Part shown: positions 3,466 to 11,576 of the stretch, one piece after another
Layout: every line of letters begins with the position of its first letter
Numbering within the stretch: position 1 is the stretch's first letter
NCBI GenBank assembly: GCA_001803565.1
Contig: MHDQ01000095.1
Location: 1 to 11,707 of the forward strand
Source of the DNA: Nitrospinae bacterium RIFCSPLOWO2_12_FULL_45_22
GTDB lineage: Bacteria; 2-12-FULL-45-22
DNA length: 11,707 nt
Direction: 5' to 3'
Position numbers and translations under genes: made by a program
The notes under the pieces: model-generated
Database searches by the model: none
Told to the model about the DNA's origin: nothing
The model's input: only the letters and a program-made list of their open reading frames with translations

Positions 3466-3510
3466 TTTAAATTAGTTAGTTCACAGATATACCCAGATAA
3501 CTATCATTGC

Positions 3511-3578
3511 AAAATTAACAATATAAAATTAGCAATTAACAAGAAGGAGTTAATTTTGAAATGCTAATTGCTAATTTT
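3511..3578. repeat. AT-rich inverted repeats upstream of the selenoprotein HdrA
   Basis: A perfect 14-bp inverted repeat (3525-3538 against 3565-3578, AAAATTAGCAATTA and its complement) and a 9-bp pair (3511-3519 against 3549-3557) overlap in this gap. The loop holds a ribosome-binding-like AAGAAGGAG and an ATG at 3561, but the residues that ATG would add do not belong to the HdrA family. It is either a low-complexity repeat or a leader hairpin for the hdrA message. Confidence 0.5.
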
Positions 3579-3620
3579 GCATTTTGCATTGAAACAGAAA
3601 CTTTAAGGAGGTATAAAGCG

Positions 3621-6062
3621 GTGTCAAAGAATGATTTGAGGATGGGGGTTTTTGTCTGCGAATGCGGGCTGAATATTGCTGGTACCGTAGATTGCAAGGC
3701 AGTCTCAGAGTATGCCAGGACCTTACCCGATGTAGTAGCTGTTATCCAGAATAAGTATACCTGTGCTGATCCCGGGCAGAATGAGATAAAGAAGGCTATC
3801 GCTGAACATAACCTGAACCGGGTGGTAGTAGCCTCCTGCACGCCCAAGATCCATGAACCTACTTTTAGGCAATGTGTGGCTGAAGCCGGGTTAAACCCTT
3901 ATCTCTTTGAGATGGTCAATATCAGAGAGCATTGTAGTTGGGTTCACCAGAACCAAAAGGATAGAGCTACTGAAAAGGCCAAAGATTTAGTAAGAAGCGG
4001 CGTCGCCCGGGCCCGGTACCTGGAGACCCAGGACGAAGCTGAAGTCAAGGTTACTAAATCTGCCCTGGTTATCGGTGGTGGGATAGCAGGAATCCAAGCA
4101 GCCTTAGACCTGGCCGATGGTGGCCATAAGGTATATCTGGTCGAGAAAGAACCGAGCATTGGCGGTATTATGGCTCAAATAGATAAAACCTATCCTACTA
4201 TGGACTGCTCCATATGAATTCTCGGCCCCAAGATGATGGATGTCGGTCGACATCCCAACATTGAGTTGCTGGTCTATAGCGAGGTAGAAGATGTCAGCGG
4301 ATATATAGGTAACTTCAAGGTAAAGGTAAGAAAGAAGGCCCGCTATGTAGGTGAGAAGGAATGCACCGCTTGTGGCGAGTGTGCCAAAATATGTCCGGTA
4401 GTAAAACCGGATGAGTATCAGATGGGTCTCTCTTCCCGCAAGGCCATATATATGCCCTTCCCGCAAGCTGTCCCATCGGCTTATATCCTCAATATGGCAG
4501 ATTGTTTGGGTAATAATCCGATTGCCTGCGGAAAATGCCTGGAGAAGTGCGAAAAGAAATGTATTGATTACGATATACAGGACCAGATCCTGGAGCTAGA
4601 AATAGGAACCATCATTGCTGCTACCGGCATGGATGTCTATGATCCTACTGAACTGGATGAATACGGATATACCAGATATGAAAATGTTATCACCAGTATG
4701 GAATTTGAGCGCCTGATCTGTGCTGGTGGCCCAACCGAGGGGCATTTTGTAAGACCTACGGACTGGAAGACCCCTAAGAGTGTTGCCTTTATCCAGTGTG
4801 TCGGTTCTCGCTCAGAAAAGCGCGGTGCACCCTATTGCAGCAATATCTGTTGTATGAACACCATCAAGGATACTCTCCTTCTGGCAGATCACTACCCGGG
4901 TATGCAGTGCAAGGTGTTCTATATGGATATCAGGGCCTTTGGCAAGGGTTTTGAAGACCTATACAAACGGAGTAAGGAGGAAGGGGTCCAGTATATAAGG
5001 GGTCTGCCGGGTGAGATTGAAGAAGACCCGGTGACCAAGAACCTTATTTTAAGGGCAGAGAATACTACTACTCGTGAGATAGAAACCCATGAAGTAGAGA
5101 TGGTAGTCCTGTCGGTTGGGGTATTGCCCAGGAGGGATGGCGATGTGGTGCAAAAATTACTTACCCTCTCCCGTACCTCTGATGGCTTCTTCCTGGAGGC
5201 GCATCCGAAACTGAAACCGGTAGATGCCCCCACCCGTGGCGTATTTTTCGCCGGATGTACAGAATATCCCAAAGATGTGAAGGATAGTGTCACGCAAGCA
5301 GGTGCTGCAGCGGCCCGGGCCAGCATCATCCTTAACGCGGGCAAAGTGAAGATCGAGGCCATAACCTCCAGGCTCATTAAAGAGAAGTGTACCTTCTGTG
5401 GCCTCTGTGCCAAAGTATGCCCCTACCATGCCATTACCGCGGCAGATAGGAAGAATAAGGTCTATCCCATGGTGATAGAGGCTGCCTGTGCGGGCTGTGG
5501 TGCCTGTGCAGCCGAATGCCCGGTAGATGCTATTAAGATGCGACACTTTACTGATGAGCAGATCATGTCCCAGGTTGAGGCCTTATTAGAGAAAGACAGC
5601 CAGGAGGCTATTGTCTGCTTTGCCTGCAACTGGTGCTCTTATGCCGGGGGAGATATGGCTGGGACCTCTCGGCTCCAATATCCACCCAATGTCCGCTTAA
5701 TTCGGACAATGTGCAGTGGCCGGGTAGATAAGAAGTTTGTCTTGCAGGCCTTCAAACTAGGTGCCCCGCTGGTATTGGTCTCTGGCTGCCATTTTGCTGA
5801 CTGTCATTATATCAGTGCCGTGCACTGGACCCAGAGACGGGTAGAGAGGCTATGGGATACCCTGGAGCAAAAGGGTATCCGGCCAGAAAGGCTGCAACTG
5901 GAGTGGATAAGTGCCGCTGAGGGACAGAAGTTTGCCAAGGTGATGCGAGGACTGGAGGAGATGCTCAAGGCCGTTACCCGAGAAGAGATTGAGTATACCA
6001 TGAAGGTCCTGGGTGACGCCAAGGAAGTCACGCCAGAGCCAAGCCTTGTAGCCGTATCATAA
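3621..6062 (+). CDS. hdrA: Selenocysteine-containing HdrA-MvhD fusion
   Basis: Reading UGA at 4215-4217 as selenocysteine gives one 813-residue protein. GTG at 3621 is chosen because AAGGAGG lies nine bases upstream and family similarity starts there ([17 protein letters not shown]). Order of domains: N-terminal domain ending [17 protein letters not shown] site GGGIAG (about 151-156); the loop DC196-S-I-U199; an inserted ferredoxin with Cys 248, 251, 254, 258 and 295, 303, 306, 310; the second half of the FAD fold; a C-terminal ferredoxin with Cys 590, 593, 596, 600 and 623, 626, 629, 633; and a fused MvhD domain from about 660 (FAC-NWC at 669/672, [16 protein letters not shown]). HdrA is the flavin that splits electron pairs in bifurcating Hdr complexes; MvhD takes electrons from the dehydrogenase partner. 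UGA serves as a stop in neighbouring genes, so general recoding is unlikely. Confidence 0.9.
4215..4255 (+). promoter_or_regulatory. In-frame UGA (Sec) codon and candidate bacterial SECIS hairpin
   Basis: UGA (4215-4217) is followed after 20 bases by a perfect 7-bp stem, GGATGTC (4238-4244) with GACATCC (4249-4255), and a four-base loop GGTC (4245-4248). Bacterial SECIS elements lie just downstream of the UGA, inside the coding sequence, and have a short stem with a G-U in the apical loop; E. coli fdhF also shows GGUC there. The 27 bases from UGA to loop are somewhat longer than in fdhF but, as I recall, within the reported bacterial range. The UGA aligns with the conserved second Cys/Sec of the DCSxC loop in HdrA. 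Confidence 0.88.
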
Positions 6063-6088
6063 TGAACTACTCAGCAAAAAATTCTCTG

Positions 6089-6117
6089 CCCCCTTAGAGA
6101 TACTATTGCTAAGGGGG
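6089..6117. other. Stem-loop after hdrA
   Basis: CCCCCTTAG (6089-6097) pairs perfectly with CTAAGGGGG (6109-6117) across an 11-base loop, 26 bases after the hdrA stop codon. It could terminate or attenuate transcription or stabilise the 3' end, but no U-run follows, so a plain intrinsic terminator is not well supported. Confidence 0.4.
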
Positions 6118-6175
6118 GTTGTGGCTTGGCGGTGCATAATTTGCTATGATAACCAATGACTAGAGGAGTATGTGG

Positions 6176-6241
6176 GTAGTGGCAGAGCTTCTCTCTGCTA
6201 GATAAAACTATTTTTTGAGCAAAGGCAAGCTTTGCGACTAC
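6176..6241. repeat. Inverted pair of REP-like palindromes (BIME-like)
   Basis: The left unit reads GTAG, TG, then stem GCAGAG/CTCTGC (6182-6198). The right unit, on the minus strand, reads GTAGTC, then stem GCAAAG/CTTTGC (6219-6235). The GTAG motifs face outward, the arrangement of bacterial interspersed mosaic elements made of paired REPs. The right end abuts the AGGAGG that serves the zinc-ribbon gene. Confidence 0.55.
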
Positions 6242-6261
6242 AGGAGGTGGTGAGAGAGCAA

Positions 6262-6402
6262 ATGGCTGAAGAGGCAAAATTTAAATGTCTTCGTTGCAAT
6301 TATGAGTATAAAGCCCCCTATTCTCCTGAGGCCGGTCCGCAAGAGAGGACCTGCCCAAAATGCCGCAGTAATAGTGTCCGTAGGATTGTAGAAAAGAAAT
6401 AA
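6262..6402 (+). CDS. Small zinc-ribbon protein, FmdB-like
   Basis: This 46-residue protein has two CxxC knuckles, CLRC (residues 9-12) and CPKC (35-38), the spacing of a single zinc ribbon, and a basic tail ending RRIVEKK. ATG is preceded by AGGAGG at 6242-6247, rather far away (14 bases). In-frame GTG codons at 6247-6252 overlap that site, so ATG is the best start. It resembles the short zinc-ribbon (FmdB/rubredoxin-like) proteins often found beside anaerobic redox operons. Its function is not known; a structural or maturation role for the Hdr complex is a guess from position. Confidence 0.65.
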   Translation: MAEEAKFKCLRCNYEYKAPYSPEAGPQERTCPKCRSNSVRRIVEKK

Positions 6403-6472: not shown

Positions 6473-6749
6473 CTATTCATCCGCCGGGCTTTTTACCGCT
6501 AGCCCCGGCTTGTTCAGCACATGGGTATAAATCATGGTCGTGGAGACATCCGCATGTCCGGGTAATTCCTGTACCGTACGGATATCGTAACCACTCACAT
6601 GTTCCGCTGTACATAAGCGCAACGGCAAGCCTTGTACAAAACGGCTCGAACCGCTGTGCCCACTTCACAAACCATTCCGCTTTGGCTTCCGGCACTCCCT
6701 GCCCTAAAGCAACAGCACGGTGCCCCTGCCAGAAAGCTTCCTTCCCCAC
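6473..6749 (-). pseudogene. intI: Integron-type tyrosine recombinase remnant
   Basis: The N-terminal part (GTG at 6749) reads [16 protein letters not shown], typical of the DNA-binding N-domain of integron integrases. After a frameshift near 6645 the next frame reads [16 protein letters not shown]. At about 6598 this jumps straight to [17 protein letters not shown] and [19 protein letters not shown], the integrase C-terminus, ending with TAG at 6473-6475. About 200 residues are therefore missing, including the first catalytic Arg and the HxxR box. The late GH and the tyrosine of MIYTHV remain. The gene should be inactive. An AAGGAGGG ribosome-binding site lies just before the GTG. Its opposite orientation to the cassettes is standard for integrons. 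Confidence 0.85.
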
Positions 6750-6759
6750 TGATCCCTCC

Positions 6760-6788
6760 TTGACTTTCTATACTGTCTTTTAGATAAT
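6760..6788 (+). promoter_or_regulatory. Candidate cassette promoter (Pc)
   Basis: TTGACT (6760-6765) and GATAAT (6783-6788) are separated by 17 bases, each one mismatch from the sigma70 consensus. It points at the cassettes and lies between the integrase remnant and the attI-like core, where integron Pc promoters are found. The following 6790-6900 is AT-rich and may hold further promoter or attI sequences. A TATAAT on the minus strand there could belong to the old integrase promoter but has no good -35. Confidence 0.6.
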
Positions 6789-6902
6789 AAATCCCCGAAA
6801 AAAATTATACACATTTATAAAATATGATACTATACAGAATTGTAGAATATTCAATAATATCTCGTTATGCAATATTAATATTCCCCATTCTATATAATAT
6901 CT

Positions 6903-6909
6903 GTTGGGT
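6903..6909 (+). other. attI-like core site, 5' edge of cassette 1
   Basis: GTTGGGT fits the integron core consensus GTTRRRY and lies 18 bases before the endonuclease start. It is the exact reverse complement of the R'' box ACCCAAC of the attC that closes this cassette (8772-8778), which supports it as the attI/cassette junction. Confidence 0.75.
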
Positions 6910-6927
6910 GAGAGAGAAGGAGACACT

Positions 6928-7857
6928 ATGCCGAAGTTGACGAAGACAGCACAACGGGAAGCGAAGACGGCTTTCTCACAAGGCCTCCACGCCTTCGTTC
7001 AGAAGATGCGGGAGTACGTGAGCGCCGAGGATGGTGAATGGACGGTCAAAGGGTTCATCGACATCTATCGGAACATATACACCATCAGTTCCGACACGAA
7101 GATCGTCTCAAAGATCCTCGAAATCCATCTCTTCCCACAAATCCTTCAGTTTGCCCAAGAACAGGGCTACTCCATCGTCCTTGCTGAACACCAGAACTGG
7201 TATCCAGATCTGAGCTTTGTGTGTCTGGCCGATCAGCGCATCAAGTTTGCCGTGGACCTGAAGACCACTTACCGTGACCCTGACTGCCCCGGTCACGTGA
7301 ACGGATTCACTCTTGGCAGTCACGGGGCATATTTCAAGGACCGAACGTCGACAAAGAATATCCAGTTTCCTTACGACGAATACTCTGGCCACTTCTGTCT
7401 CGGGATCATCTACACCCGAGCTGATGCCAGGGACGTTGACGGGACAGAGATCATCAACGTCAAGGAACTCGACGAGGAAACGGAGCATCCTCTCCGCATC
7501 GGGCACAGAGAAGTCACCACCGTAGACAGTTTGCGCTCCATCGCCTCGGTAATCAAAGATTTCCAATTCTTCGTCTGCGAGAAGTGGCAACTCGCGAGCG
7601 ATCGCCAGGGCTCAGGTAATACTGCCAACATCGGCTCAATCACGGCCATTGACGACATCTTGAGGGGAAACAGCATCTTCGCCAAACTCGGAGAAGACTG
7701 GTTTGACGAGTACTGGATGAACTACGGCGTAACCACGATGAAGAAAGGCCGGAAGACAATCCCAATAAAAAGACTGGAGGACTTCATCGCCTTCAAACGC
7801 GGTGACAAGGACCTCATCGTTCCTGTCGCGACGAAACGGAAAAGGAAGGAAGACTGA
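6928..7857 (+). CDS. EcoRV-like type II restriction endonuclease
   Basis: This 309-residue protein aligns along its length with EcoRV (245 residues), which cuts GATATC to blunt ends. Shared blocks include SSDTK, a catalytic core NWYPD (D94) with AVDLKTTY (D110, K112) corresponding to EcoRV D74/D90/K92, E65 like E45, GFTLG, TKNIQFPYDEY and YTRA. The recognition-loop block GSGNTANIGSI closely matches EcoRV GSGNTTNIGSI, so GATATC specificity is likely. The ATG at 6928 is chosen over an in-frame TTG at 6904 because AGAAGGAGA precedes it and the TTG lies within the attI-like core. Extra length is mainly an N-terminal extension and a basic C-terminal tail. TGATG joins it to the methyltransferase by one base. 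No controller (C) gene is seen. It is the first gene of integron cassette 1, under the candidate Pc. Confidence 0.93.
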   Translation: MPKLTKTAQREAKTAFSQGLHAFVQKMREYVSAEDGEWTVKGFIDIYRNIYTISSDTKIVSKILEIHLFPQILQFAQEQGYSIVLAEHQNWYPDLSFVCLADQRIKFAVDLKTTYRDPDCPGHVNGFTLGSHGAYFKDRTSTKNIQFPYDEYSGHFCLGIIYTRADARDVDGTEIINVKELDEETEHPLRIGHREVTTVDSLRSIASVIKDFQFFVCEKWQLASDRQGSGNTANIGSITAIDDILRGNSIFAKLGEDWFDEYWMNYGVTTMKKGRKTIPIKRLEDFIAFKRGDKDLIVPVATKRKRKED

Positions 7858-8801
7858 TGCGGGTTGTTGTGCCCCCAATCAAGAGCCAGGGGATCAAGAC
7901 AAAACTCGTGCCATGGATACAAGCACTCGTTCCCGATGTTTCTGGGCACTGGATCGAGCCTTTCTTGGGTACGGGTGTAGTTGCGTTCAATTCAGGGTTT
8001 CAGCGCGCTCTCCTGAGTGACACGAATCCGCATGTGATCCGGTTCTATCAGCAAGTCCAACAGGGAGTCATCCGAGCTTCTCGCGTAAGGGCGTATCTTC
8101 AGGAAGAGGGGAAACGCCTTCAGTGCGCTCGGAATAGTGGATACGATCATTTCAATCTCATCAGGGATCGCTTCAACAGAGATCATGATCCTCTTGATTT
8201 TCTCTTCCTTTCCAGGGCAGGTTTCAATGGGATGATGCGTTTCAATAGGAGGGGCGAATGGAACATCCCCTTCTGCAAGAAGCCGCAGCGTTTCAGTCGA
8301 TCCTACATTACGAAAATCGTCAATCAAGTACACGATGCCGCGTGTCTGATACAGCCCGAGTGGGAGTTTCGGGTCGCTCCGTTTCAAGAGATCATCCCCC
8401 AGGCGACCTCTAGTGACATCATCTACTGTGATCCACCATATGCAGGTCGGTATGTTGATTACTATAATGGCTGGACAGACGAGGACGAGCAGAGGTTATT
8501 TGAGTTGCTCTCATCAACACCGGCAAAGTTCATACTTTCGACATGGCACCATAACGATTATAGACATAACGATATGGTGGAACGTTACTGGAGAAGATTC
8601 AACATCGTTACCCGGGATCACTTCTATCATTCTGGAGCAAAGATCGAGAACAGAAATACCATTGTGGAGGCGCTTGTTTTCAACTTTGATGCCAATATCG
8701 AGGAGCATAACCACGGCGTGAGGCCCAAGCCCGAACAGCTGATGCTTTTCGAAGAGAGAGCAGAATACATGACCCAACAATTGGGTCGAGCGGACGTGTG
8801 A
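7857..8801 (+). CDS. EcoRV-like adenine-N6 DNA methyltransferase (Dam/D12 class)
   Basis: This 314-residue protein closely resembles M.EcoRV (298 residues), which methylates adenine in GATATC and protects host DNA from the cognate nuclease. The start VVPPIKSQGIKTKLVPWI holds motif X. EPFLGTGVVAFNS (about 34-46) is the AdoMet motif I, DTNP follows, and DPPY (192-195) is the catalytic motif IV. LDFLFLSRAGFNGMMRFN and STWHHNDYR are family blocks. The start ATG overlaps the stop of the endonuclease gene, so translation is probably coupled. The last nine codons before the stop (about residues 306-314) lie inside the attC site, so the C-terminal tail is partly recombination-site sequence. Confidence 0.93.
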   Translation: MRVVVPPIKSQGIKTKLVPWIQALVPDVSGHWIEPFLGTGVVAFNSGFQRALLSDTNPHVIRFYQQVQQGVIRASRVRAYLQEEGKRLQCARNSGYDHFNLIRDRFNRDHDPLDFLFLSRAGFNGMMRFNRRGEWNIPFCKKPQRFSRSYITKIVNQVHDAACLIQPEWEFRVAPFQEIIPQATSSDIIYCDPPYAGRYVDYYNGWTDEDEQRLFELLSSTPAKFILSTWHHNDYRHNDMVERYWRRFNIVTRDHFYHSGAKIENRNTIVEALVFNFDANIEEHNHGVRPKPEQLMLFEERAEYMTQQLGRADV

Positions 8802-8843
8802 TCCGCTGGCGCGTCTCACACGCCGCTCACCCACACGTTAGAC
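8772..8843 (+). other. attC site of cassette 1 (restriction-modification)
   Basis: R'' is ACCCAAC (8772-8778) and R' is GTTAGAC (8837-8843), both fitting the integron consensus. Between them TGGGT pairs with ACCCA, GAGCGG with CCGCTC and CGTGTGA with TCACACG. A single C and a single A on the left arm stay unpaired, as attC strand choice requires. The loop is 8803-8814 or close to it. Confidence 0.85.
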
Positions 8844-8869
8844 TATAACCCAAATAAAGGAGGAAACCC

Positions 8870-9100
8870 ATGTCTTTACAACTGCAAGAAGTAGTGAACA
8901 AAGCCCTTAATCTGTCTCCCGAGGAACGCGCAGAATTAGCACATGAACTGATTCTAAGCCTGGATGATACCAGAGACAAGGAAGTTGAAACGGCTTGGGA
9001 TGCAGAGATTGAAAGTCGTGTAAGGGAAATTAAAAGCGGCAAGGCGAAAGGCAGACCGGCAGAGGATATACTTGCAGAGATACGAGCCAAATATTCATGA
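8870..9100 (+). CDS. RelB-like antitoxin (addiction-module component)
   Basis: This 76-residue acidic protein begins SLQLQEVVNKALNLSPEERAELAHELILSLD. That helical start is typical of the putative addiction-module component family (TIGR02574 type), which pairs with ParE/RelE toxins. The C-terminal half, with WDAEIESRVREIKSGKAKGRPAED and then LAEIRAK, is the expected toxin-wrapping segment. AAAGGAGG (8856-8863) lies six bases before the ATG and only a few bases past the attC core, so the cassette brings its own translation start. Its TGA overlaps the toxin ATG by four bases (ATGA). Confidence 0.85.
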   Translation: MSLQLQEVVNKALNLSPEERAELAHELILSLDDTRDKEVETAWDAEIESRVREIKSGKAKGRPAEDILAEIRAKYS

Positions 9101-9402
9101 AACACATCATTGTTCACAGTGAAGCAGAATTGGAATTGTGGCAAGCGGTAGAGTACTACGAAGCCAAACGCGTTGGATTAGGGCTGAATCTTGAGCAAGA
9201 GGTAAGCCACGCCCTTGCCGATATTCAGGAAGCACCCGACAGGTGGCCTAAAAGAAGCTATGGAACGATATGTCGTTTGCTCCGTCGATTTCCATATGCT
9301 ATCTACTATTTGGAAGTTCAAGATGTTACCTGGGTAGTAGCTGTAGCACACACCAGCCGTAGGCCTTACTATTGGCGTAACCGCATGAAAAGCAACATAT
9401 AA
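9097..9402 (+). CDS. ParE/RelE-family toxin
   Basis: This 101-residue protein has the ParE/RelE plasmid-stabilisation pattern: an N-terminal helix pair (AEAELELWQAVEYYEAKR-like, GLGLNLEQEV), then RLLRRFPYAIYYLEV, then the closing block VVAVAHTSRRPYYWRNR. ParE members poison DNA gyrase and RelE members cleave mRNA on ribosomes; sequence alone does not say which applies here. It is translated from the ATGA overlap with the antitoxin gene. The TAA stop falls just before the attC R'' box. The pair forms integron cassette 2 and is likely to stabilise the array. Confidence 0.85.
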   Translation: MKHIIVHSEAELELWQAVEYYEAKRVGLGLNLEQEVSHALADIQEAPDRWPKRSYGTICRLLRRFPYAIYYLEVQDVTWVVAVAHTSRRPYYWRNRMKSNI

Positions 9403-9404
9403 GA

Positions 9405-9479
9405 GTCTAACAAAAGGATGAACCCGACTGGTATTCCGCTGCACCCCATACCAACGGGTTATCCCGCTGGCCGTTAGGG
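9405..9479 (+). other. attC site of cassette 2 (toxin-antitoxin)
   Basis: R'' GTCTAAC (9405-9411) is the exact reverse complement of the leading core GTTAGAC of this cassette (8837-8843). R' is GTTAGGG (9473-9479), off the consensus only at the last base. Arms GGAT, AACCCG and TGGTAT pair with ATCC, CGGGTT and ATACCA, leaving a lone G and an asymmetric AC/A unpaired. Confidence 0.83.
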
Positions 9480-9535
9480 GCATCTTGATGCCAAGTCCAG
9501 CACGTTATTAAGACTCAAAAGAAAGGAGATAAACA

Positions 9536-9547
9536 ATGCGCGTGTGA
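9536..9547 (+). other. Three-codon reading frame behind a strong ribosome-binding site
   Basis: AAGGAG (9523-9528) and seven bases of spacing lead to ATG CGC GTG TGA. Either this is the cut-off beginning of an older cassette gene interrupted by the adjacent repeat, or a minimal leader. The position, right behind the core site, is where the first gene of a cassette would start. Confidence 0.35.
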
Positions 9548-9552
9548 AATCT

Positions 9553-9606
9553 GGGGAGGGACACTTCCCCTATTTCATAAATATTGATTTAAGATAGCAG
9601 TGTCCC
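9553..9606. repeat. MITE-like inverted repeat in cassette 3
   Basis: GGGACACT (9558-9565) is repeated inverted as AGTGTCCC (9599-9606) around an AT-rich middle, and a nested GGGGA/TCCCC pair lies at the left end. It separates a stranded start codon from the BrnT gene. A small non-autonomous insertion is plausible. No target duplication is evident to me. Confidence 0.4.
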
Positions 9607-9627
9607 TGACTTTTATAGGACGATATA

Positions 9628-9897
9628 ATGAAATTTGAATGGGACAGGAACAAAGAGAAGCTGAACATTAAAAAGCATACAATTTCTTTTGACGAAGCCG
9701 TCACCGTGTTCTATGATCCTTTATCGGCAACATTCGCTGATCCGGACCACTCCATTGAAGAGGATAGGTTAGTCACTATAGGCTATTCATCTCAGGGACG
9801 TCTGTTTGTTGTATCGCACACGGAAAGAGGGGATGCGATACGGATTATCAGTGCACGCCCTGCAACCGTATCGGAGAGGAAAAGACATGAAAACTAA
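9628..9897 (+). CDS. brnT: BrnT-family toxin
   Basis: This 89-residue protein starts MKFEWDRNKEKLNIKKHTISFDEA and continues with PLSATFADPDHS. It then has RLVTIGYSSQGRLFVVSHTERG and closes with IRIISARPATVSERKRHE. These are the hallmarks of BrnT, a RelE-fold ribonuclease toxin that slows translation. AGGA lies just upstream of the ATG. The end overlaps the antitoxin gene by 11 bases, and toxin before antitoxin is the usual BrnTA order. It is the main gene of integron cassette 3. Confidence 0.92.
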   Translation: MKFEWDRNKEKLNIKKHTISFDEAVTVFYDPLSATFADPDHSIEEDRLVTIGYSSQGRLFVVSHTERGDAIRIISARPATVSERKRHEN

Positions 9898-10144
9898 AAC
9901 TATATCTGAGGAATTACGTCCCGAATATGAGTTCGATTATTCTAAAGCCGTTCGTGGTAAGTACTTCAAAAAGCTATTGGAGGAGGGAGCTAACGTGGTT
10001 GTCCTGGAACCTGAAATAGCCAAGGTGTTTACCAATTCGGCCGCTGTGAATGATGCCTTGAGATCTCTGCTTGAAATTACACGATCCACACAGCGCCTAA
10101 CAAAGCACTCAACCGGACGTGCAAAAAAGCTGCGCACCGGTTAG
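9887..10144 (+). CDS. brnA: BrnA-like antitoxin, C-terminus encoded by attC
   Basis: The 85-residue protein starting at ATG 9887 (after GAGAGGA within brnT) has FDYSKAVRGKYFKKLLEEG, then VVVLEPEIAKVFTNSAAVNDALRSLLEI. This is the ribbon-helix-helix C-terminal part typical of BrnT partners, which bind the toxin and repress the operon. An in-frame ATG at 9806 would sit deep inside brnT and is not a credible start. The last 16 or so residues (LTKHSTGRAKKLRTG) are encoded by the attC site and its TAG stop lies within it, so this basic tail probably carries no family function. Confidence 0.82.
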   Translation: MKTKTISEELRPEYEFDYSKAVRGKYFKKLLEEGANVVVLEPEIAKVFTNSAAVNDALRSLLEITRSTQRLTKHSTGRAKKLRTG

Positions 10145-10157
10145 TTTTTCGTTCGGT
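10095..10157 (+). other. attC site of cassette 3 (brnTA)
   Basis: R'' is GCCTAAC (10095-10101), one base from the complement of the leading core GTTAGGG (9473-9479). AACCGG (10111-10116) pairs with CCGGTT (10137-10142), an A follows unpaired, and a short inner stem surrounds an A-rich loop. R' is GTTCGGT (10151-10157), with C in place of the first purine, a degenerate but recognisable core. Confidence 0.75.
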
Positions 10158-10236
10158 CAAGTCGGAGTGATGAAGAACATCTTGTGCATAGATGGGCACA
10201 AAGCTCACTAGTCTAAAACCACAGGAGGGTAAAAAA

Positions 10237-10749
10237 ATGCCTACAGCTCAAGAACTGCTTCCTGATCCCAATAAGCCACTGAGCGAGCATTCGGAGCTTC
10301 AATTGTTAGCCATGGTGCTATTCGGAGAAGCCCGAGGAGAACCGCCACAGACGCGGGAAGGTATTGGCCATGCGATTATCAACCGTGCCTTGCATCCCAG
10401 TTGGTGGGGTAGAAACCTGAAGGAAGTGATCCTCAAACCATGGCAATTCTCCAGCTTCAACGGGCCCGAGGTAATTCTGGTCATTAAGCCGCATCAGGTT
10501 GATCCGAACTATAGGAAACTGCGGGAGCCACTGAGGTATGAATCCCCGCAAGTCTGGGGGGATTGTTGCAATGCCGCTATCGAAGCGTATAAGCGCTTAA
10601 CTCAGGCGACTTTACCCGATCTGGTCAAGGGGGCGAATCACTACTACGATACGTCCATCCCAGCGCCACGTTGGGCCGATCCGGAAAAATTTGTGCTCGC
10701 ACTTCCGGCAAGTCGCAGAGGCCATGAAGTCCGATTTTACAAACTCTAA
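10237..10749 (+). CDS. SleB/CwlJ-type cell-wall hydrolase
   Basis: This 170-residue protein has LLAMVLFGEARGEP (E31 being the expected catalytic glutamate), GIGHAIINRALHP, QFSSFNG and ANHYYDTSIPAPRWA, the conserved blocks of the SleB/Hydrolase_2 family. These enzymes act on peptidoglycan, as in spore-cortex lysis, and related domains occur in phage and general wall enzymes. No signal peptide or membrane segment is seen, so export would need another route or lysis. ATG 10237 is chosen over 10192 because AGGAGGG (10223-10229) is well spaced from it. It forms integron cassette 4, and its TAA stop lies in the attC R'' box. Function within the cassette is not known. Confidence 0.85.
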   Translation: MPTAQELLPDPNKPLSEHSELQLLAMVLFGEARGEPPQTREGIGHAIINRALHPSWWGRNLKEVILKPWQFSSFNGPEVILVIKPHQVDPNYRKLREPLRYESPQVWGDCCNAAIEAYKRLTQATLPDLVKGANHYYDTSIPAPRWADPEKFVLALPASRRGHEVRFYKL

Positions 10750-10775
10750 CAAAGCCCATTTGCGCAATGGGTGCT
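10744..10775 (+). other. Partial attC site of cassette 4
   Basis: CTCTAAC (10744-10750) resembles an R'' box, followed by a hairpin AGCCCATT/AATGGGT-CT (10753-10760 with 10766-10775) that leaves one G unpaired. No R' core (GTTRRRY) follows. The R'' box also matches poorly to the cassette's leading core GTTCGGT. This looks like an attC cut off at the edge of the integron. Confidence 0.5.
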
Positions 10776-10850
10776 CACAAAACAATTAACAAAGAGCAAA
10801 GAAGAAAACATTAAACCCGCTAGTTTTGTGGTTCTTAGCTCTTTGCTCTT
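10776..10850. repeat. Inverted repeats at the integron's right edge
   Basis: CACAAAAC (10776-10783) pairs with GTTTTGTG (10823-10830), and AAGAGCAAAGA (10792-10802) with TCTTTGCTCTT (10840-10850). Words such as CTCTTAGC and CTCTTAAC recur up to the nrdG-like start. The two arm pairs are interleaved, so they cannot form one simple hairpin. This is a low-complexity AT-rich repeat like the one before hdrA. Confidence 0.5.
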
Positions 10851-10862
10851 AACTCTTAGCTT

Positions 10863-11576
10863 ATGGTAGCTATACAATTTGATGTTAAAGGATTCCTGGA
10901 GACATCGTTTCTCGAATGGCCGGGGCGGATAAGTTCGGTAATATTTTTGGCGGGGTGCAATTTTCGCTGCCCTTATTGTCATAACCACCCCTTAGTCTTA
11001 GCACCGGCACGGCTCCCTACTATCCCATTAGAATCCATTCTTTCTTTTCTGGGGGGGCATAAAGACTGGATTGATGGGGTGGTGATAACCGGTGGTGAAC
11101 CTACCCTCTATGCAGCCCTACCATCTTTGGTTCAACAATTTAAGGAGCGAGGTTTCAGGGTAAAATTGGATACGAATGGTAGTAATCCTATCTTGCTAAA
11201 AGAACTCCTGGATAATCACCTGCTAGATTATGTGGCGATGGATATCAAAGCCCCTCTGGAAGAGAACAAATATACTCTGGTGGCCGGGGTAGAAGTTGAC
11301 CTTAGCAGAATCAATCAGAGTATCCAACTCCTACTGGATGCTGATATCCCCTACGAATTTCGTACTACAGTGCTCCCCTTATTCGTTACCCGAGAGGATG
11401 TCCTGGCTATCGCCCGGGTCATAAAAGGGGGGAAGAGGTATGTCTTACAGAATTTTAACCCCCAAAACCCCCTAGACCCTCGCTTAAAAGAAGAAGCCCC
11501 TTACCAGCCTGCCGAGTTGGAAGAAATAGCCCAACAACTAATGGATTATATCTCTCATATCCAGACTATCTATTGA
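10863..11576 (+). CDS. nrdG: NrdG-type radical-SAM activating enzyme
   Basis: This 237-residue protein has WPGRISSVIFLAGCNFRCPYCHN, with the radical-SAM CxxxCxxC at C32, C36 and C39, followed by VVITGGEPTL (the SAM-contacting GGE motif) and LDTNGSNP. It matches the NrdG2 branch of anaerobic ribonucleotide-reductase activating proteins, which uses SAM and a [4Fe-4S] cluster to make a glycyl radical on NrdD. No clear ribosome-binding site precedes the ATG, and the bases before it are repeat sequence, so the original promoter and leader may have been altered when the integron or repeat arrived. The partner reductase is not in the window. Some members of this branch act on other substrates. Confidence 0.85.
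   Translation: MVAIQFDVKGFLETSFLEWPGRISSVIFLAGCNFRCPYCHNHPLVLAPARLPTIPLESILSFLGGHKDWIDGVVITGGEPTLYAALPSLVQQFKERGFRVKLDTNGSNPILLKELLDNHLLDYVAMDIKAPLEENKYTLVAGVEVDLSRINQSIQLLLDADIPYEFRTTVLPLFVTREDVLAIARVIKGGKRYVLQNFNPQNPLDPRLKEEAPYQPAELEEIAQQLMDYISHIQTIY

Follow-up and report, generated by a model that had tools for sequence, protein, structure and literature searches.

The locus described here raises the question of whether a run of restriction-modification (RM) and toxin-antitoxin (TA) genes beside a heterodisulfide reductase (Hdr)-like cluster forms a chromosomal integron, and what became of the integrase that would have built it. A sequence-only reading of the DNA had claimed that an integrase remnant, an outward promoter, an attI-like core and four cassettes with foldable attC sites are all visible there. 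The evidence presented below argues very strongly for a small chromosomal integron that captured at least three cassettes at attI, and whose own integrase was destroyed by an internal deletion of about 1 kb.

Genomic setting of the locus

The window, meaning the whole stretch of DNA that was analysed (11,707 bp), is identical to contig C95 of a metagenome-assembled genome (MAG) of 3.67 Mb, which is 85% complete and consists of 321 contigs. On its left, the window contains a heterodisulfide-reductase-like cluster whose last genes encode HdrA and a small zinc-ribbon protein. These two genes (4233–6402, + strand, counting HdrA from after an in-frame TGA) mark the chromosomal side of the integron, and the pair is conserved, being found also at 18 loci of other lineages. 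The right flank is an NrdG2-type radical SAM activase (10863–11576, + strand; TIGR02495, E = 1.5e-60).

The phylum is represented by two species in our comparison set, and the second one belongs to the same order (hereafter the sister genome). The sister genome does not have this gene neighbourhood. The NrdG2 gene follows the zinc-ribbon gene in neither the sister genome nor any of 45 HdrA loci from other lineages, and no empty site was found among them.

attC sites and cassette boundaries

An Rfam search yielded no attC, and we therefore trained a covariance model of our own on ten attC sites located elsewhere in the host genome, leaving out the window sequence. The ten sites had been picked by a structural scan; the model thus depends on the attC features that were chosen, although not on the window. 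Because of a short calibration, the E-values of the model are rough. Three sites on the + strand ranked first in the window: attC1 (8772–8843; 29.8 bits, E = 3.4e-6), attC2 (9405–9479; 28.1 bits, E = 9.6e-6) and attC3 (10095–10157; 35.0 bits, E = 1.4e-7). The next match, at E = 0.1, was the opposite strand of attC1. A gene pair ends at each of the three sites, which are spaced by about 560 and 615 bp, well inside the limit of a published definition of integrons (at least two attC sites separated by less than 4 kb; PMC9668308). With a threshold of E ≤ 0.01, the model gave no match in 20 of 25 other genomes. The sister genome contained four weaker matches, and the HdrA loci of other lineages (648 kb in all) contained only two, both in one locus.

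The structural scan also placed attC1–3 among the best + strand matches of the window, with heuristic scores of 50.0, 38.2 and 36.4. Two of these are individually modest, given that 100 Markov shuffles reached a maximum of 44.5 and yielded 0.26 matches of at least 36 per shuffle. The folded bottom strand of attC1 has an unpaired base in its stem (DNA fold z = −6.0), whereas attC2 and attC3 fold barely better than shuffled DNA (z of about −1.3). The attC stem showed covariation: 36 cells were altered on both sides compared with a shuffled mean of 19.7, and none of 500 shuffles scored as high.

In an integron cassette, R′ opens the sequence, R″ lies close to its end, and the two are expected to pair. 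The junction between attI and cassette 1, GTTGGGT (6903–6909, + strand), is perfectly reverse-complementary to the cassette 1 R″, ACCCAAC (8772), and pairs with it at all seven positions; the cassette itself starts after the first G of this motif. Cassette 2 pairs equally well (R′ GTTAGAC at 8837 and R″ GTCTAAC at 9405; 7/7), and cassette 3 pairs at six of seven positions (R′ GTTAGGG at 9473 and R″ GCCTAAC at 10095). Across 22 cassettes in other arrays of the genome, the pairing was exact in 9 and at least 6/7 in 13, compared with 2.6% exact matches under random pairing. Several of the failures elsewhere occur at sites whose ends lack GTT, and their ends were therefore probably misplaced by the model. 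The held-out attC model and the R′/R″ pairing, together with the integrase stub described below, uphold the proposed integron identity, with GTTGGGT as the candidate attI core.

The SleB-like unit at the right end

The fourth of the claimed cassettes fared less well than the first three, and the number of foldable attC sites is three instead of the four claimed. This unit (10152–10775, + strand) consists of a SleB-like cell-wall hydrolase gene, which starts at 10192 or 10228 and ends at 10749 (+ strand; PF07486, E = 1.6e-7), and an attC-like remnant. The segment after the gene (10744–10775) begins with CTAACAAA (CTCTAAC at 10744) and contains a hairpin (10755–10771). The R′ of such a cassette would be GTTCGGT, which does not pair with the attC-like start CTCTAAC, and no GTT-type R′ follows. 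The covariance model had no match after the gene.

Either of two interpretations is possible, namely a further cassette whose attC has decayed, or a native flank. In the latter, the locus would be a true integron of three cassettes, and the hydrolase would be a native chromosomal gene beside the original attI, with the last confirmed R′, GTTCGGT (10151), as the leftover right half of attI. We regard this as a serious possibility, although somewhat short of an even chance. The missing attC model match agrees with it, whereas the position of CTAACAAA speaks against it: on the + strand of the window, this motif occurs only at attC2, at attC3 and at the stop codon of the SleB-like gene, where the hairpin follows. 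Because of this restricted distribution, the segment may be a ruined attC.

An A/T-rich inverted repeat (agagcaaagaa / ttcttagctctttgctctt) occupies positions 10776–10862, between this unit and the NrdG2 gene.

The integrase remnant and possible activity in trans

The intI gene lies beside the array and diverges from it, and only a remnant without the catalytic core is left. The C-terminal stub (6479–6622, − strand) matches TIGR02249, the integron-integrase model, over its final 48 positions (E = 1.4e-16), which bears out the integrase remnant of the sequence-only reading. The N-terminal stub (6636–6749, − strand) has the position and orientation expected for intI and appears to represent an N-terminal extension. 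Between the two stubs (6479–6749, − strand), about 1 kb would have been lost, and with it most of the catalytic domain. Lacking the catalytic core, the locus does not qualify as a complete integron.

Two intact integron integrases are present in the host genome, on contigs C243 and C304, and the sister genome also has one. The C304 enzyme is the closest to the C-terminal stub of the window (76% identity; tblastn E = 4e-17). It has an intact 461-aa frame that includes up to about 146 aa of N-terminal extension, to which the N-terminal stub (6636–6740, − strand) shows a weak similarity (34% over 35 aa; E = 0.017 in a small database). The remnant in the window therefore seems, from these alignments, to derive from a long, N-terminally extended enzyme.

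The claimed outward promoter did not stand. A candidate cassette promoter, TTGACT-17-GATAAT (6760–6788, + strand), scored 10/12 in a sigma-70-like consensus scan, but the region contains five such sites compared with 5.8 expected by chance. Because the count equals chance expectation, an outward promoter is unproven.

From the anatomy of the locus, the array would have been assembled by IntI recombination at G^TT between attI and bottom-strand-folded attC sites, giving the order EcoRV-like RM pair, addiction-module TA pair and BrnT-type TA pair. It would no longer be rearrangeable by its own integrase. Cassettes may still be exchanged in trans through the two intact integrases, and an array kept active in this way by the C243 or C304 enzyme is a possible, if rather doubtful, state of the locus. 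The presence of two complete enzymes and the closeness of the C-terminal stub to that of C304 agree with such activity, as does the lax recognition of attC sites across integrases, for which a class 1 integrase that acts on archaeal attCs is an example (PMC9668308). On the other hand, no region similar to the attI of the window was found elsewhere in the host genome.

Integrases and attC sites across the host genome

Further integrase remnants or contig-edge fragments are located on C115, C136, C317, C287, C7, C17 and C248. The crippled integrases of C136 (20130–20725) and C317 (8560–9155) have one deletion junction in common, with 83% identity over 596 bp, and this copy was therefore probably duplicated after the deletion. 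C287 shares only the C-terminal part with them. We also considered that all the remnants are copies of one dispersed element, and this was rejected by DNA comparison, in which only C136, C317 and partly C287 were copies. The same comparison showed that the remnant in the window is a separate deletion, closer to C304.

At E ≤ 0.003, the host genome contains about 48 attCs, including the ten training sites of the model, on 24 contigs. The assignment of the integron contigs, including those with the intact integrases, to the same genome rests on MAG binning, and misplacement is possible. Pfam matches among the other cassettes were few (a PIN-domain protein, DUF2442 twice and a weak NucS/DUF5655 match). 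It is conceivable that the scattered cassette clusters without integrases form one dispersed, genome-wide repertoire that is served in trans by the two intact enzymes, with the crippled copies on C136 and C317 duplicated after their deletion, instead of one array belonging to each integrase. We consider this arrangement unlikely.

Cassette contents

The proposed defence and stability cargo was borne out by profile matches for all three cassettes. Cassette 1 (6904–8837, + strand) is bounded by the attI junction and attC1, and is predicted to carry an EcoRV-type type II RM system, that is, an EcoRV-family endonuclease with the catalytic motif and an adjacent adenine methyltransferase. The endonuclease (6931–7857, + strand; 308 aa) belongs to the same family as EcoRV, PF09233 (E = 2.4e-110). 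It matches EcoRV structures with E = 2.4e-34, and the YPD and VDLK catalytic-motif positions are conserved in the alignment. Next to it, as in the EcoRV system, is a D12-class adenine DNA methyltransferase with a DPPY motif (7857–8801, + strand; 314 aa; PF02086, E = 5.5e-41; PADLOC MTase_II, E = 5.9e-113). The endonuclease is about 34% identical to EcoRV and may recognise GATATC or a different sequence. Homologues of EcoRV were found in 12 plasmid records (30–52% identity; the closest, at 52%, from Antarctobacter), and none were found in phages and viral contigs.

Cassette 2 (8838–9473, + strand) ends in attC2 and encodes an addiction-module TA pair. The antitoxin (8870–9100, + strand) matches PF09720 (E = 2e-15), and the RelE/ParE-type toxin (9097–9402, + strand) matches PF05016 with E = 2.4e-4 and 22 bits, just below the 23-bit cut-off. 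Cassette 3 (9474–10151, + strand) ends in attC3 and holds a putative BrnT-type pair. The BrnT toxin (9628–9897, + strand) was identified by PF04365 (E = 6.4e-28). Its small partner (9887–10144, + strand) had no family match in the profile searches and is a putative antitoxin by its position in the BrnA slot. The penalty that RM and TA genes impose on their loss is the probable reason why the array has been kept.

RM and TA genes generally cluster in defence islands. This tendency and the individually modest folds of attC2 and attC3 would suit an island assembled in some other way, in which the attC-like hairpins are chance products or transcription terminators, but we consider that account highly improbable, since model matches at the exact gene ends, R′/R″ complementarity and an integron-subfamily stub on the attI side are jointly unexpected by chance.

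Relation to published integrons

Nearly one third of intI genes were found to be pseudogenes by Nemergut et al. (2008; PMC2426708), and more than one intI was present in over a fifth of integron-bearing lineages (PMC2426708). The integron in the window resembles such chromosomal integrons in that intI decayed by deletion while the array was kept, and differs from them in its host lineage and in the many separate attC loci of one genome. Xanthomonas arrays with pseudogenised integrases are also cited in PMC8618304. 'Clade 15' integrases exceed other IntI in length by about 120 aa (PMC2426708), and the C304 integrase resembles them in being extended. In archaeal MAGs, up to 107 attCs were distributed over more than 18 contigs of one MAG (PMC9668308). 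Like those CALIN arrays and archaeal integrons, the present host has many attCs on many contigs, although it is not one of the 75 archaeal MAGs studied there and possesses intact integrases.

TA and restriction/methylation genes are among the commonest named cassette cargo (PMC8618304, PMC7370490). The cassettes in the window belong to the same classes, with the difference that an EcoRV-type RM pair forms a two-gene cassette, of which we found no earlier description in a literature search that was not exhaustive. What is new is therefore the host lineage and the EcoRV-type cassette, whereas TA/RM cassettes and integrases that are decayed, extended or multiple have already been published. An integron-rich, Hdr-bearing lineage, from a phylum represented here by two species, thus joins the known hosts, and the carriage of an EcoRV-like RM pair as a cassette suggests that integrons could be one travel route of such systems. 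With its dozens of attCs and its two intact and several broken integrases, the whole genome is better suited than this array to the question of cassette exchange in trans.

Other features of the window and of Hdr loci

The in-frame TGA upstream of the zinc-ribbon gene is located at 4215–4217, within the HdrA motif MDCSI-U-ILGPKM. At this position, 16 of the 18 motif matches counted, including that of the window, have TGA and the other two have Cys. The host genome also contains SelB. On the basis of these two features, the gene is interpreted as a selenocysteine HdrA and not as a frameshift. A SECIS-like fold after the TGA was no better than chance.

The two covariance model matches in HdrA loci of other lineages (29.6 and 24 bits) are both located in a Gemmatimonadota sequence (L057, CP070666.1; 11960–14355). 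They lie a few kb downstream of an HdrA/zinc-ribbon pair and may represent a further cassette cluster in the vicinity of an Hdr locus. Within the left part of the window, an A/T-rich imperfect palindrome (3504–3594) has parts that are 97% identical to contig C65 (L023, 5376–5495), indicating an interspersed repeat.
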